Shown piece after piece: positions 30,373 to 34,776 of a stretch of 35,198 nucleotides of DNA. This DNA is from a virus. The stretch spans positions 1 to 35,198 of the IMG/VR virus record IMGVR_UViG_3300042401_000051; one strand, written 5' to 3'. The position numbers were made by a program, and so were the translations under genes. The notes under the pieces were generated by a model, which was not told the DNA's origin, did no database searches, and was given only the letters and a program-made list of their open reading frames with translations. Numbering within the stretch: position 1 is the first letter of the stretch; each line of letters opens with the position of its first letter.

Positions 30373-30390
30373 ACAATTTCCTTTCGTCAA

Positions 30391-30687
30391 TTAACAAACT
30401 GCCAACATCTTATCAACTAAATAGAAATCTCCAGTAATGGTGCTAAATGGAGTTGCTCTATCTGTATCAAAACCTTCAAACCTTCTTCCTGATTTTAATA
30501 AGCCACCATTATGTTCATATCCTAGAGCATCAGAGATTTCAAAATAGCAGTTATATGTTACCCAACCAACTATTGCGCCAAACTTATCAAACAATGGTGT
30601 ATGTTTAGAAAAATAATAGCTAGGCTCTTTAATAAAGCCACCATGAGCTAAAACTTGAATTGCTTCTTTTAGACGATATGTTTTCAT
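30391..30687 (-). CDS. Hypothetical early protein
   Basis: A 98-residue protein from the ATG at 30687, preceded by AAAGGAAATTGT; an upstream ATG pair at 30705 would place the ribosome site inside the gene. It starts MKTYRLKEAIQVLAHGGFI and has a central aromatic region (VGWVTYNCYFEISDALGYEH) and an end that reads like a beta-strand pair. No catalytic motif seen. Part of the leftward early operon driven from about 31.07 kb. Function unknown. Confidence 0.65.
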   Translation of the reverse strand: MKTYRLKEAIQVLAHGGFIKEPSYYFSKHTPLFDKFGAIVGWVTYNCYFEISDALGYEHNGGLLKSGRRFEGFDTDRATPFSTITGDFYLVDKMLAVC

Positions 30688-30701
30688 ACAATTTCCTTTC
30701 A

Positions 30702-31028
30702 TCAATTAACAACTACTTCATTATCAAATGTGTTTCTTTTCAAAGACACATAAACTTCATTAGTAAAAACATCTTTAATTTCAGCTTCTACAACCCAACC
30801 TTTACGAGTTTCAACATAACCACCATTAGCGTTATATGCTTCTTTAACAAAGCCACCTGATTCAACCTTAGTCCAAGACAACTGACCTTTGTATTTTCCT
30901 TTGTTCTTACCCTTGGAATATTTAGGAACTTTGTTGATTGAATCACCAAACAACTTGCTGGCATAAGACTCGCCAAACTCTGATTGCATAGATGCGTATT
31001 TAGTTGTAAATGTGGCTCTAACTGACAT
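30702..31028 (-). CDS. Hypothetical early protein, first gene after promoter
   Basis: A 108-residue basic protein (SVRATFTTKYASMQSEFGE, KYSKGKNKGKYKGQLSW, then GGFVKEAYNANGGYVET). The Lys-Gly-rich middle suggests nucleic-acid contact. It shares a short GGF(I/V)KE segment with the gene downstream, too little to claim homology. It has an AAAGGAAACTACC ribosome site and is the first gene of the transcript that carries the recombination set. Function unknown. Confidence 0.65.
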   Translation of the reverse strand: MSVRATFTTKYASMQSEFGESYASKLFGDSINKVPKYSKGKNKGKYKGQLSWTKVESGGFVKEAYNANGGYVETRKGWVVEAEIKDVFTNEVYVSLKRNTFDNEVVVN

Positions 31029-31063
31029 GGTAGTTTCCTTTCATCACTTGTTAAACTGGGTTT

Positions 31064-31093
31064 AGTATAACACTAAAAAACACTTTGCAACAC
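31064..31093 (-). promoter_or_regulatory. Leftward promoter A with TTGCAA box
   Basis: Read on the minus strand: AGTGTTGCAA (TTGCAA at 31085-31090), then 15 bases, then TATACT (31064-31069). The same arrangement occurs at promoters B and C. It drives the gene at 31028 and probably the whole recombination operon. The TTGCAA spacing is short for a -35 box, so an activator or operator role is possible. Confidence 0.6.
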
Positions 31094-31104
31094 TTTCTGT
31101 TAAA

Positions 31105-31132
31105 TATTTAAGAAAGCCCTATTTCTAGGGCT
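31105..31132 (-). terminator. Leftward intrinsic terminator with GAAA tetraloop
   Basis: On the minus strand AGCCCTA pairs with TAGGGCT around a GAAA loop, then TTTCTTAAATATTT follows. It lies just past the stop codon of the 31141-31788 gene and before promoter A, so it separates two leftward transcripts. Confidence 0.82.
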
Positions 31133-31140
31133 ATCCACCT

Positions 31141-31788
31141 TTAAGCTGTTTCTAGCTTTCTCCAAGCCTGTGAACCCATCCAACTACGCATTTCTTTGCC
31201 ATCAGAGGCTCTTGTAGCAGACCAGTAAACCCTTGCTCCATCAACCTTGAAGCAAGTAAATACAGAACCTGATTCCTTGCTTAGTTTCTTATCACCTACA
31301 CGAATTGGGGTTACTTCCTTTTTAGCTACTTCAATCAAAGGTGTTCCATGAACCTTGTTAGCAGTGCTTTCCAATTGGTTAGCAAAAAGCTCTCCACTAC
31401 GAGCTTTGTTTTTTAAAGCCCAAACAACTTGATCGACTGCCTGTCTTTGCTCAAGCCAAGAAGCATCAGCAAACGCAATTTTTACATCAACCCATTTTTT
31501 AAGTTCAATATCTAAAACTCTTTTTAATACAGACTCAAGTTTTAAAGCACCTGATTTGTATTGCTCTGCTTTAGCCAACAGCTTAGGAATTTCGGCACGA
31601 ATCTCAGAAACAATACGATCTGTTTCTACTCTAGAAATTTGCATAGGTTGGTGATGATTACCTGAGCAAACACCTTGAAACCAACCATGAGCAACTGTGT
31701 AACCATGCTTAGACATCAGACCACCAACTACAGCTTGCTCTCTAGCACAGCATTGGCAATTACCACGAATTTGAATATCTTTTTTCAT
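31141..31788 (-). CDS. Hypothetical protein with N-terminal zinc-finger-like Cys/His cluster
   Basis: A 215-residue protein. The N-terminus GNCQCCAREQAVVGGLMSKH and, further on, GVCSGNHHQP hold C11, C13, C14, C41, H45 and H46, a likely zinc site. The middle is helical (KLLAKAEQYKSGALKLESVL) and the end is basic and Trp-rich (MRSWMGSQAWRKLETA). It is bracketed by promoter B upstream and a terminator downstream, so it forms a one-gene unit. Such regulation suggests a distinct early function, perhaps DNA or RNA binding. No family name can be given. Confidence 0.7.
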   Translation of the reverse strand: MKKDIQIRGNCQCCAREQAVVGGLMSKHGYTVAHGWFQGVCSGNHHQPMQISRVETDRIVSEIRAEIPKLLAKAEQYKSGALKLESVLKRVLDIELKKWVDVKIAFADASWLEQRQAVDQVVWALKNKARSGELFANQLESTANKVHGTPLIEVAKKEVTPIRVGDKKLSKESGSVFTCFKVDGARVYWSATRASDGKEMRSWMGSQAWRKLETA

Positions 31789-31836
31789 ATCTACTTTCCC
31801 TTCATCACTTGGTTAAAAAATTTACTGCGTGGTTTG

Positions 31837-31865
31837 ATTATACACAAAATGACAGGTTGCAACAC
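31837..31865 (-). promoter_or_regulatory. Leftward promoter B with TTGCAA box
   Basis: On the minus strand: AGTGTTGCAA (TTGCAA at 31857-31862), 14 bases including CTGTCA, then a perfect TATAAT at 31837-31842. It is nearly identical to promoter C. It serves the gene starting at 31788. Confidence 0.7.
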
Positions 31866-31879
31866 TATTTGAAATATAT

Positions 31880-32281
31880 TTAACTTTGTTGTTTTTTTGC
31901 CCAATATCCGTAAACCATCTTTTGTGAGCAATCCCAAGTATCTTGAGCCAAACCATTGATTACAGCTACATAGTGACCAGCTTGTCTTGCAATAACAATT
32001 CCAGTTGGCATATCGCTGCATTTAGCTTTTCTACCTTCAAACTTAGGAGCTGGATTCCAAGTCCAACCATGCTTTGCAAGAACATCTTGATAAATGTCTT
32101 TGTAAATGCCATTTCTAGCAGATTTAGCAAAGCCTTTGTCTTTGTTGGCTTGAGCTAATTCGTTATAGGCTGTCTTGTAGTCCAAACCCAAAGCTATTGC
32201 CATTGCTCTAGCTCCACAATCTCCTGCTGATCCTTTTAAACCAGCTTCTGATCTACCGCCATCGTTGTAAGTAAAGTTCAT
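31880..32281 (-). CDS. Putative papain-like cysteine peptidase
   Basis: A 133-residue protein with the order expected of a small papain-fold enzyme: GSAGDCGARAMAIALGL at 17-33 places C22 at the start of a helix, AGHYVAVINGLAQDTWDC at 101-118 places H103 on a strand, and D114 or D117 follows. Many phage relatives keep these Cys, His and Asp residues. If active it would cleave a host or phage protein, or act as a transglutaminase-like or deamidating enzyme. It is early expressed, from promoter C. The assignment is from motif order only. Confidence 0.62.
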   Translation of the reverse strand: MNFTYNDGGRSEAGLKGSAGDCGARAMAIALGLDYKTAYNELAQANKDKGFAKSARNGIYKDIYQDVLAKHGWTWNPAPKFEGRKAKCSDMPTGIVIARQAGHYVAVINGLAQDTWDCSQKMVYGYWAKKQQS

Positions 32282-32310
32282 TTAATTTCCTTTCATCACT
32301 TGGTTAAAAA

Positions 32311-32475
32311 TTACTTCTGAATTGAATCAATACGAAAATACTTAGGATTTTTTGCTAAAACAATTTTTACAGCTTGGTTAATAGTTACTGGAACACTCCA
32401 CTCTTTCCATGTATTTGTGTAGTCATCAAACTTCATTACTACACATTCTTTTTTGCCTTGACCTTTGCGTTTCAT
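32311..32475 (-). CDS. Small basic early protein, first leftward gene (54 aa)
   Basis: Starts at the ATG at 32475 with GAAAGGAAAT upstream; the frame upstream of this runs through the promoter and is not coding. MKRKGQGKKECVVMKFDDY, then WSVPVTINQAVKIVL. It has a basic N-terminus and an alpha/beta body. It is the first product made from the leftward control promoter, so it could be a regulator or host-takeover protein. Function unknown. Confidence 0.65.
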   Translation of the reverse strand: MKRKGQGKKECVVMKFDDYTNTWKEWSVPVTINQAVKIVLAKNPKYFRIDSIQK

Positions 32476-32509
32476 TTTATTTCCTTTCAGCACTTGTTGA
32501 ACTAAGTTC

Positions 32510-32538
32510 ATTATACACAATTTGACAGTTTGCAACAC
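32510..32538 (-). promoter_or_regulatory. Leftward promoter C with TTGCAA box (main control region)
   Basis: On the minus strand: AGTGTTGCAA (TTGCAA at 32530-32535), 14 bases including CTGTCA, then TATAAT at 32510-32515. It diverges from the rightward promoter about 50-100 bases away, as in lambdoid immunity regions. It drives the genes at 32475 and 32281. Confidence 0.7.
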
Positions 32539-32582
32539 TTTTTTTTAATTATTTTCTAGGTGGTTTCCCTAGTATAAGGGTT

Positions 32583-32610
32583 TTGCATTGTTTTCCTTTT
32601 GGTATATGAT
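32583..32610 (+). promoter_or_regulatory. Rightward early promoter
   Basis: TTGCAT at 32583-32588 is followed after 16 bases by TATGAT at 32605-32610, or after 14 bases by TATATG at 32603-32608. The start of the regulator gene lies about 28 bases downstream, after ACGAAAGGA. The TTGCA core is shared with the three leftward promoters. Confidence 0.55.
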
Positions 32611-32637: not shown

Positions 32638-32835
32638 ATGAAACCATTTGACGAATTAAAACTAGAATTTGGTGTATTGGCAAACCTCGCAAAGCCTTTA
32701 GGAGTAAGGGAAAACGCAATTTACCAATGGTCTAAACGAGGCAAAATACCTGTTAAACACATCAGAACGCTCATAGAGCTATCGGAAGGCAGACTGACTA
32801 AGGAAATGCTTAGACCTGATCTTTTTAAGGGGTAA
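32638..32835 (+). CDS. YdaS/Cro-like helix-turn-helix regulator
   Basis: A 65-residue DNA-binding protein from the ATG at 32638, with GAAAGGA upstream; the frame back to 32599 crosses the promoter. LANLAKPLGVRENAIYQWSK at 14-33 is a helix-turn-helix, followed by RGKIPVKHIRTLIELSEGRL, as in YdaS and Cro-type proteins. It should bind operators in the divergent control region next to it and turn early promoters down. It is first of the rightward operon, like cro in lambda. No CI-type partner gene is visible. Confidence 0.82.
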   Translation: MKPFDELKLEFGVLANLAKPLGVRENAIYQWSKRGKIPVKHIRTLIELSEGRLTKEMLRPDLFKG

Positions 32836-32837
32836 AG

Positions 32838-33596
32838 ATGAATTTTTACCCTTTTCACATAGGGGATTATTTAAGTCATACCTCCCATCTTACGGATGAG
32901 GAAGATTTGACTTACAGGCGCATGATTGATCTTTATTACCAAACTGAAGAACCTTTTACGGATACGGCTAAATTGGCTCGTAAGGTAAGGTCTAGCTTTG
33001 AGATTGTGGGAAGTCTTTTGCATGAGTTTTTTGTTTATGAGGATGATGCTTGGCATAACAAAAGAGCTGATGTAGAAATAGCCAAATACAAAGCTATGAA
33101 AGATGGTGGTCGCAAAGGCGCATCAATAAGGTGGCATAAGGGTAGCGATACCCCCCCTATACCCCTCCCTAATCACCCCCTAATGCCAACCAAGAACCAA
33201 GAACCAAGAACCAAGAACCATATAAAAACTATACCCACTCCTGAAGGAGTGAGTTCTGATCTTTGGAATGATTTTTTGGTTTATAGGAAAAGACTGAAAG
33301 CTCCTGTATCAGATCGAGTGCTTTCAAGATTGATTAAAGAGGCTGAATTAGCCAAAATGCCGTTATCGGATGTTTTAGAAACCATTATTTTTAAAGGTTG
33401 GAGATCATTTGAGGCTTCATGGGTTCAGCAAATGGCTCAGAAAGCCTCAGAAATGCCTCTAGGAAGCGATCAGCAGATAGAGGAGGCATACAGGATTGAA
33501 TGTGGCGCAGATCCTCGCCTAGCTCGTTTTAACAGCTATTTTGAGATGAAGAAATTTATCCTTGACCAAAGGGATAAGAAAAGGAAAGTTGCTTAA
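32838..33596 (+). CDS. Replication initiation protein, DUF1376 N-domain
   Basis: A 252-residue protein. Residues 1-100 (NFYPFHIGDYLSHTSHLTDE, AYRRMIDLYYQTEEP-like segment with TYRRM, then DGGRKGASIRWH) fit DUF1376, a winged-helix domain found in phage replication proteins. Residues 101-130 form a Pro/Asn-rich linker encoded by C-rich DNA and 7-bp repeats. The C-terminal half is helical (DLWNDFLVYRKRLKAPVSD, GWRSFEASWVQQMAQK). It probably binds the origin, perhaps the repeats in its own gene, and recruits host helicase, as lambda O does. No helicase gene is seen. It starts two bases after the regulator. Confidence 0.78.
   Translation: MNFYPFHIGDYLSHTSHLTDEEDLTYRRMIDLYYQTEEPFTDTAKLARKVRSSFEIVGSLLHEFFVYEDDAWHNKRADVEIAKYKAMKDGGRKGASIRWHKGSDTPPIPLPNHPLMPTKNQEPRTKNHIKTIPTPEGVSSDLWNDFLVYRKRLKAPVSDRVLSRLIKEAELAKMPLSDVLETIIFKGWRSFEASWVQQMAQKASEMPLGSDQQIEEAYRIECGADPRLARFNSYFEMKKFILDQRDKKRKVA
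33190..33220. repeat. CCAAGAA tandem repeats, candidate origin iterons
   Basis: Four full copies of the 7-bp unit CCAAGAA (starting 33190, 33197, 33204, 33211) plus a partial CCA. They lie inside the replication gene, after a C-rich stretch (33147-33181) and before an AT-rich stretch (33219-33231). A 7-bp unit does not keep frame, so selection is on DNA or the array arose by slippage in a linker. Confidence 0.72.
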
Positions 33597-34123
33597 TGGA
33601 TTTGTTTGATATTCCAAGAATTGCTCCAAAAAGCCCAAAAATGCTTAATTTGAGGGAAATAGGGGTAAATCATGCAATGGAATTTAATCAAATGTGGCAT
33701 AGCAGATTACCAATTACAAGCCATTCAAACATGATTAGAAATGCTCATAAAGTCTTTTATGGAGCTGAATTTGAGGGACATTGTTTTGCATCAGCAATGT
33801 GGACAGATCCAGTTGCTGGCAATCGTATGTCTAAAGACCATGTATGGCTTGAGCTGAGAAGGCTTGCAGTTGCTCCTGATGCGCCTAAATTTACAGCAAC
33901 TTGGATGATTGCAAAGATGGTCAAAGATGTAAAAAAGCGCTTTCCTGATGTAACTATGCTTGTTTCTTATCAAGATACTGAAGTCCACCAAGGAACAATT
34001 TATAAGGCTTCTAATTGGGTTTTGGATTCTGTAAGCAAATTTCAAGATTGGTCAAATGAAAAAAGAACAAGAAATGTCTTACAGACAAAATCTGACAAAA
34101 TTAGATGGATATACAGTTTATGA
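33596..34123 (+). CDS. Mom-like GNAT acyltransferase, first of a pair
   Basis: A 175-residue protein. EFNQMWHSRLPITSHSN, FYGAEFEGHCFASAMWTDP and LELRRLAVAPDAPKFTA form the early part. The signature VSYQDTEVHQGTIYKASNW lies at 123-141. This closely parallels VSYADTGKGHIGYVYQATNF in the next gene, a Mom-family protein. Mu Mom adds a carbamoylmethyl-type group to adenine in DNA and so blocks restriction. This protein probably shares the fold and acts on DNA or with its neighbour. It starts one base into the replication gene's stop and overlaps the next gene by ATGA. Confidence 0.75.
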   Translation: MDLFDIPRIAPKSPKMLNLREIGVNHAMEFNQMWHSRLPITSHSNMIRNAHKVFYGAEFEGHCFASAMWTDPVAGNRMSKDHVWLELRRLAVAPDAPKFTATWMIAKMVKDVKKRFPDVTMLVSYQDTEVHQGTIYKASNWVLDSVSKFQDWSNEKRTRNVLQTKSDKIRWIYSL

Positions 34124-34776
34124 AAGTGTTGCCAATTAAAAATGAAGAATCTTACCCTTGGTTGCTTCAAAAGCATTATGCAAAAAGGATTCCTCAAATA
34201 ATGTTTGCTTTTGGTCTTTATGAAGAAAATGAGCTTGTTGGGGTTGTAACTTACGGAATCCCAGCCTCCCCTGCTCTTTGTATGGGCATTTGTGGAAAAG
34301 AATATTCAGACAAAGTTTTGGAATTAAATAGGGTTTGTTTGTTAAATAACGACAAAAATCAAGCTAGTTTTTTAGTTGCTAACTCAATCAAGTTGCTTCC
34401 AAAGCCAACTATAGTGGTTTCTTACGCTGATACTGGTAAAGGTCATATTGGTTATGTTTATCAAGCGACTAATTTTTTATATACAGGCTTATCTGCTAAT
34501 CGTGTTGATTGGACTGTCAAAGGTTTAGAACATAAACACAGCAAAACTTTATCAGATGGAATGACTTTGGAATCTATTAAAGAAAAATACGGAGATGATT
34601 TTTATTACACAGAACGAAGCAGAAAGCATAGATATATTTATTTTCATGGAAATAAAACGCAAAAAAAGGTTATGAATAATTTGTTGAAGTATGAAATTGA
34701 ACCTTATCCAAAAGGAAATTCGCAGAAATATGATTCAGGATCAACAGTAGAAACACAAGGACTTTTGTTTGAATGA
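34120..34776 (+). CDS. mom-like: Mom-family DNA adenine modification acyltransferase
   Basis: A 218-residue protein from the ATG at 34120 (ATGA overlap with the gene before); an ATG at 34105 is possible. YPWLLQKHYAKRIPQIMFAF at 12-31, VVTYGIPASPALC at 42-54, VLELNRVCL at 66-74, SYADTGKGHIGYVYQATNF at 101-119 and KGLEHKHSKTL are the conserved blocks of the Mom/GNAT family. The product should convert adenine in phage DNA to a bulky N6 derivative, which protects against host restriction enzymes. Residues past 165 are basic (RSRKHRYIYFHGNK). No Com-like translational activator was seen. Confidence 0.85.
   Translation: MKVLPIKNEESYPWLLQKHYAKRIPQIMFAFGLYEENELVGVVTYGIPASPALCMGICGKEYSDKVLELNRVCLLNNDKNQASFLVANSIKLLPKPTIVVSYADTGKGHIGYVYQATNFLYTGLSANRVDWTVKGLEHKHSKTLSDGMTLESIKEKYGDDFYYTERSRKHRYIYFHGNKTQKKVMNNLLKYEIEPYPKGNSQKYDSGSTVETQGLLFE

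Follow-up and report, generated by a model that had tools for sequence, protein, structure and literature searches.

In lambda, CII sites are given in one account as TTGC-N6-TTGC around the −35 region (PMC4651098), and the MotA box of T4 middle promoters, TGCTTtA, is placed in a description of that phage 12 ± 1 bp from the −10 element (PMC2988021). For cluster K mycobacteriophages, a report on the SAS and ESAS elements describes a leader that is repeated at the translation starts of some genes, with about half of the SAS copies carrying an extra upstream element of 17-bp inverted repeats (PMC3203893). YdaS and YdaT were argued, in a letter, to be the Cro and CII of Rac (PMC5917428). The UP element consensus that we used for comparison is the one presented in PMC5664571.

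The stretch of DNA analysed here, referred to as the window, is an IMG/VR virus record of 35,198 bases with 38.8% G+C. Its plus strand carries the head and packaging genes, genes for a YqaJ exonuclease and for an annealing protein of the Sak type are among the leftward early genes, and its rightward genes include ydaS and a DUF1376 replication-type gene. Judged by its coat protein, the record is closest among named phages to two uncultured Manatee Spring phages (77–80% identity), and Rhodoferax phage P26218 is distant (36% identity). Scans of genome contigs for a host gave no match, nor did tRNA and Rfam searches of the 35,198-base window. Two adjacent genes at 33596–34776 both match a Mom-like DNA modification family (phrog_1384).

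Three leftward early genes or gene groups of the window are predicted to start from copies of one promoter (Table 1). From the sequence patterns described below we favour, with moderate confidence, the reading that the box shared by these copies serves as the −35 of a composite promoter for a host sigma-70-type RNA polymerase and belongs to a reused promoter-leader cassette. The composite promoter would consist of an A-rich upstream tract, AGTG, the −35 hexamer TTGCAA, STG and the −10 element, and would be read by the main (sigma-70-type) RNA polymerase of the host. Together with a repeated ribosome-binding leader it would form a cassette of approximately 90 bp, placed before different leftward early genes. 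More tentatively, though as a possibility to be taken seriously, a phage or host regulator may bind both repeats across the −35, making the 14–15 bp spacer usable. The A-rich tract, TTGnnn and TATAAT, as well as the TTGACA of relatives at 16–18 bp, are shared with sigma-70-type promoters that have an UP element; the window copies differ from these in their 14–15 bp spacers and in the conserved AGTG and STG flanking the hexamer. The lambda CII promoters (PRE, PI and PaQ) are similar in having a pair of direct repeats, separated by about six bases, on either side of the −35, but the repeats here are AGTG and STG rather than TTGC. The organisation also resembles that of SAS/ESAS, whereas the sequences and the host group are different and a promoter-like direct repeat takes the place of the 17-bp inverted repeats upstream.

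The window contains exactly three copies of the box AGTGTTGCAA, all on the minus strand (31085–31094, 31857–31866 and 32530–32539), compared with a mean of 0.27 per dinucleotide shuffle of the window (200 shuffles). The preliminary description had reported the box followed by a −10 element after 14–15 bases at about 31.07, 31.85 and 32.52 kb, and all three minus-strand sites were recovered, with distances of 15 (TATACT), 14 (TATAAT) and 14 (TATAAT) bases. None of 200 dinucleotide-shuffled windows reached three occurrences of the box, N14/15 and TATA (mean 0.0), and neither the plus strand nor a backwards-read control contained a pair of box and −10 element. CTGTCA and TTGTGTATAAT are common to the copies at 31.85 and 32.52 kb, as had been pointed out. 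Searching the whole window singled out AGTGTTGCAA but not TTGCAA alone, which is at chance level (27 observed versus 29.4 expected). The pattern AGTGTTGCAA-N14/15-TATAMT is present in at least 119 stretches of viral contigs, which by a rough estimate are mostly chance and were therefore left out as evidence, and a count over those loci gave 223 further site types; no phage-promoter title was among the literature matches listed for the string AGTGTTGCAA.

Table 1. Features of the early region, with coordinates of the window
Feature	Position	Strand	Details
Repeated leader with ribosome-binding site, copy A	31029–31052	−	AACAAGTGATGAAAGGAAA
Predicted promoter A	31064–31094	−	AGTG-TTGCAA-AGTG...TATACT; 15 bp between hexamers
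Hairpin then T-rich tail, candidate terminator	31115–31132	−	AGCCCTAGAAATAGGGCT; fold −14.1 kcal/mol, z −2.9
Repeated leader, copy B	31794–31814	−	
Predicted promoter B	31837–31866	−	AGTG-TTGCAA-CCTG...TATAAT; 14 bp; heads gene 31788–31141
Repeated leader before gene 32281–31880	32282–32305	−	Without promoter box
Repeated leader, copy C	32476–32498	−	
Predicted promoter C	32510–32539	−	AGTG-TTGCAA-ACTG...TATAAT; 14 bp
A/T-rich tract 5′ of box C, UP-element-like	32540–32556	−	A-rich in nearly all relatives
Imperfect palindrome between divergent promoters, candidate operator	32557–32571		TAGGTGGTTTCCCTA
Predicted ydaS promoter	32582–32610	+	TTTGCA-17-TATGAT
ydaS, 65-aa Cro-type HTH protein	32638–32835	+	PF15943, E 4e-11

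Promoter A is predicted to head gene 31028–30702 and probably also the genes after it, and promoter C, which is divergent from ydaS, to head a small gene (32475–32311) followed by gene 32281–31880. The hairpin in front of promoter A is a probable terminator between this promoter and gene 31788–31141, although it is not among the predictions of a terminator scan of the window. With TATAAT, TATAAT and TATACT, the −10 elements of the window are close to TATAAT, as is characteristic of sigma-70-type promoters, and TTGCAA matches TTGACA at four of six positions, at a 14–15 bp spacer in the window.

A ribosome-binding leader close to AAGTGATGAAAGGAAA is present in six copies before early genes on the minus strand (30377–32498), where 0.05 would be expected per shuffle, and a longer form, GCAGTAAATTTTATTAACAAGTGATGAA, is common to relatives. 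Three copies come with the promoter box and three (30377, 30692 and 32286) lack it, so that the earlier placing of the box at all early promoters was too strong. The RNA structure of leader copy A is no better than that of shuffles (z −0.37). The promoter and leader remain constant while the gene behind them changes, a combination used three times in the window. Across 39 divergent regions, the 35 first genes behind the divergent promoter fall into 23 families. L024, L026, L034 and L045 yielded no first gene by the rule applied, gene starts were likewise assigned by rule, and short proteins may have been divided into too many families.

These regions were collected through a YdaS search that yielded 62 loci, which, once the window was added, reduced to 35 non-redundant divergent regions (relatives are given L numbers); four further regions were found by pattern and are biased towards leader or box. 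From the resulting 39 regions we scored 37 leftward promoters, with L024 giving none and L045 set aside. The rows are related by descent, and their counts overstate independence and are descriptive. In related IMG/VR contigs, the leftward promoter adjoining ydaS is the same promoter, with the box in the −35 place; the box has a narrower distribution than the −10 and leader region. The spacers of the 37 promoters are 14 (7), 15 (12), 16 (9), 17 (5) and 18 bp (4). A conventional −35 is found at the place of the box in L031 (AGTG-TTGACA, 17 bp to TATACT) and L030 (AGTG-TTGACT, 17 bp to TAAAGT), TTGACA lies at 18 bp in L026 and at 16 bp in L039, and L028 can alternatively be read as TTGATT-17-TAATAT. 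The spacing had been thought too short for a normal −35; it is indeed 14–15 bp in the window, but the box fills the −35 slot in relatives. For sigma-70 promoters of the known kind, 14 bp is an unfavourable spacing, which counts against the favoured reading. Over the 37 related rows, the match of the −10 falls as the spacer lengthens (rho −0.71), every 14-bp case having TATAAT. The −35 match shows no trend with spacer length (rho 0.05).

Conservation extends beyond TTGCAA to a unit made up of the A-tract and AGTG-[−35]-STG, a direct repeat with a 10-bp period. Among the 37 rows, whose scoring gave one bonus point to AGTG-like flanks, the columns before and in TTG are conserved (A1 and T3 35/37, G4 32/37, T5 and T6 37/37, G7 36/37), and T13 (32/37) and G14 (31/37) of the second repeat are above −35 positions 8 and 9 (25/37 and 26/37). 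The conservation of AGTG and STG in these alignments exceeds the requirements of a plain −35, which also counts against the favoured reading. The unit nTGTTG-N4-STG is present in 27 of the 35 non-redundant regions and lacking in L024, L025, L026, L029, L034, L039, L041 and L045. As for the role of operator or activator site suggested in the preliminary description, the conservation outside the hexamer supports an additional role, but the box itself sits in the −35 slot; regulation through the direct repeats is plausible.

We considered whether the box is mainly a regulator site, at which a putative phage or host activator would act on AGTG-N6-nSTG across a weak −35 and would be needed for the 14–15 bp spacers, a reading that we regard as unlikely. 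It would account for the coupling of the two repeats, since STG follows ten bases after the first repeat in 25 of 25 AGTGTTG rows (13 distinct 14-mers), and for the distribution of spacers, all 19 of 14–15 bp falling in unit-bearing rows and the six scored unit-less rows having 16–18 bp; the published geometry of lambda CII, as far as the account goes, offers a precedent (PMC4651098). However, PF05269 (Phage_CII) was not detected in any of 12 records searched, which are possibly incomplete (the control was positive), and no other regulator was identified. Early promoters are also expected to fire ahead of the build-up of phage proteins, and L030 and L031 retain the repeats despite a good −35 at 17 bp. 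The pattern of spacers and units fits a regulator that offsets bad spacing, but it also fits the simple replacement of one segment, by which both repeats may be lost jointly. A more specific proposal, still tentative and on the whole rather doubtful, is that several early promoters in one phage group answer to a so-far-new regulator with no recognizable kinship to CII, S24-type repressors or MotA. It would bind the AGTG-N6-nSTG direct repeats over the −35 and permit 14–15 bp spacers. Some relatives, in which the site may have given way to a normally spaced consensus −35, would then hold a natural regulator-free counterpart of the regulator-dependent promoter.

The preliminary description had named the Cro-like YdaS as the obvious candidate for binding the TTGCAA box, which it took for a probable operator or activator site repeated at all early promoters. 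The protein is a clear member of its family (43 bits to PF15943 versus a cut-off of 30) and is related to the solved Cro proteins 3bd1 (E 9.7e-10) and 5w8y. Its gene adjoins promoter C and is present in 12 of 12 records searched, which were chosen for ydaS. As in Rac and CP-933P, there is a family match and ydaS is the first gene of a rightward early operon; in contrast to those prophages, no S24-type repressor, CII or integrase was found in the records searched, and the box shows no significant tie to the YdaS type. Searches for integrase and S24 repressor domains gave none in the 12 records, which are possibly incomplete, and HTH_3 exceeded the cut-off with one match in one of the 12 (that of L039). 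Cro proteins as a class bind two-fold symmetric operators. The box site has no dyad symmetry beyond TTGCAA, while YdaS resembles Cro proteins: CACT, as expected for inverted flanks, was matched at only 4, 1, 1 and 2 of 37 rows per position, and the box as a dyad operator was ruled out, as its flanks form a direct repeat. The unit is also kept in 9 of 13 YdaS lineages across different recognition helices (ENAIYQW, NTAVYNW, as in L042, ANTLYLW and PNSVVLW), the same helix position being Q, N or L. Lineages that have the unit and lineages that lack it do differ at two recognition-helix columns, but in this weak test of 13 lineages no column was significant after correction (best p = 0.17; p = 0.73 for a second column, S versus N/T near the helix start). 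Binding of YdaS to the box is thus unsupported, and we consider this role of YdaS improbable.

The rightward promoter had been said to carry TTGCAT at the same relative place. This word (32583–32588) overlaps the −35-like TTTGCA of the ydaS promoter and, at 16–17 bp from the −10, appears to be part of an ordinary −35. It has no AGTG flank, and it is not conserved, because relatives carry TTTACA (L015 and L022) or TTCACA (L018–L020) at the aligned place, which ruled it out as a fourth copy of the box. A further point against the favoured reading is that TTGCAA is no general −35 word in these phages, because TTGCAN ranked first in only 4 of 39 regions in a search for the best −35 and −10 on the rightward side. 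In L054, TTGCAA stands in the rightward promoter, within the palindrome ATATTTGCAAATAT and 17 bp ahead of TATATT.

Another candidate for a YdaS operator is the palindrome at 32557–32571, whose perfect form, TAGGGAGTTTCCCTA, is found in L034 and L206. Many relatives have this TAGG-CCTA element between their divergent promoters, but the group with MEEIK-type YdaS does not. Its variants do not track the recognition helices cleanly: with the same helix, ETAIYQW, L028 and L195 have different variants and L205 has none. In L030 and L031, of a group without the TAGG-CCTA element, a TTATCAC-N6-GTGATAA palindrome lies in the spacer of the ydaS promoter and is possibly the YdaS operator of that group. 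A palindrome resembling TAGG-CCTA, TAGGGTAAATCCCTA, adjoins AGTGTTGC in a divergent region of MW202674 (L215, 5340–5520), with no ydaS among the nearby ORFs.

We also considered that the similarity reflects recent common descent and recombination of linkers, AGTG and STG being functionless. The recurrence of the leaders and the swapping of first genes point to homologous exchange at such sequences, and the phage encodes the Sak and YqaJ recombination proteins. This is nevertheless very improbable, given that in an ungapped alignment of the three window copies (53 columns) the box is identical at 10 of 10 columns, compared with 19 of 43 elsewhere, and that the unit persists over nine YdaS lineages. 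Least probable of all is a T4-like sigma appropriation, in which a MotA-like activator on a box centred near −30 would replace the −35: the distance from TGC to an excellent −10 is alike (19–20 bases here, and 18–20 for the MotA box in the account of PMC2988021), but relatives extend to 17–18 bp with TTGACA, and a normal −35 at the same place argues against its replacement by the box, and no known activator was seen. Searches for AsiA and MotCF in 12 records gave no hit, which does not show their absence, as the control was also silent.

Should a regulator bind the repeats, spacers that range naturally from 14 to 18 bp, with and without repeats, would provide a test of activator rescue at poor spacing. 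If the plain reading of a composite sigma-70-type promoter is true, a reused promoter-leader cassette would bring different early genes under a single expression programme, and it would aid both the annotation of uncultured phages and the tracing of how early accessory genes are acquired.
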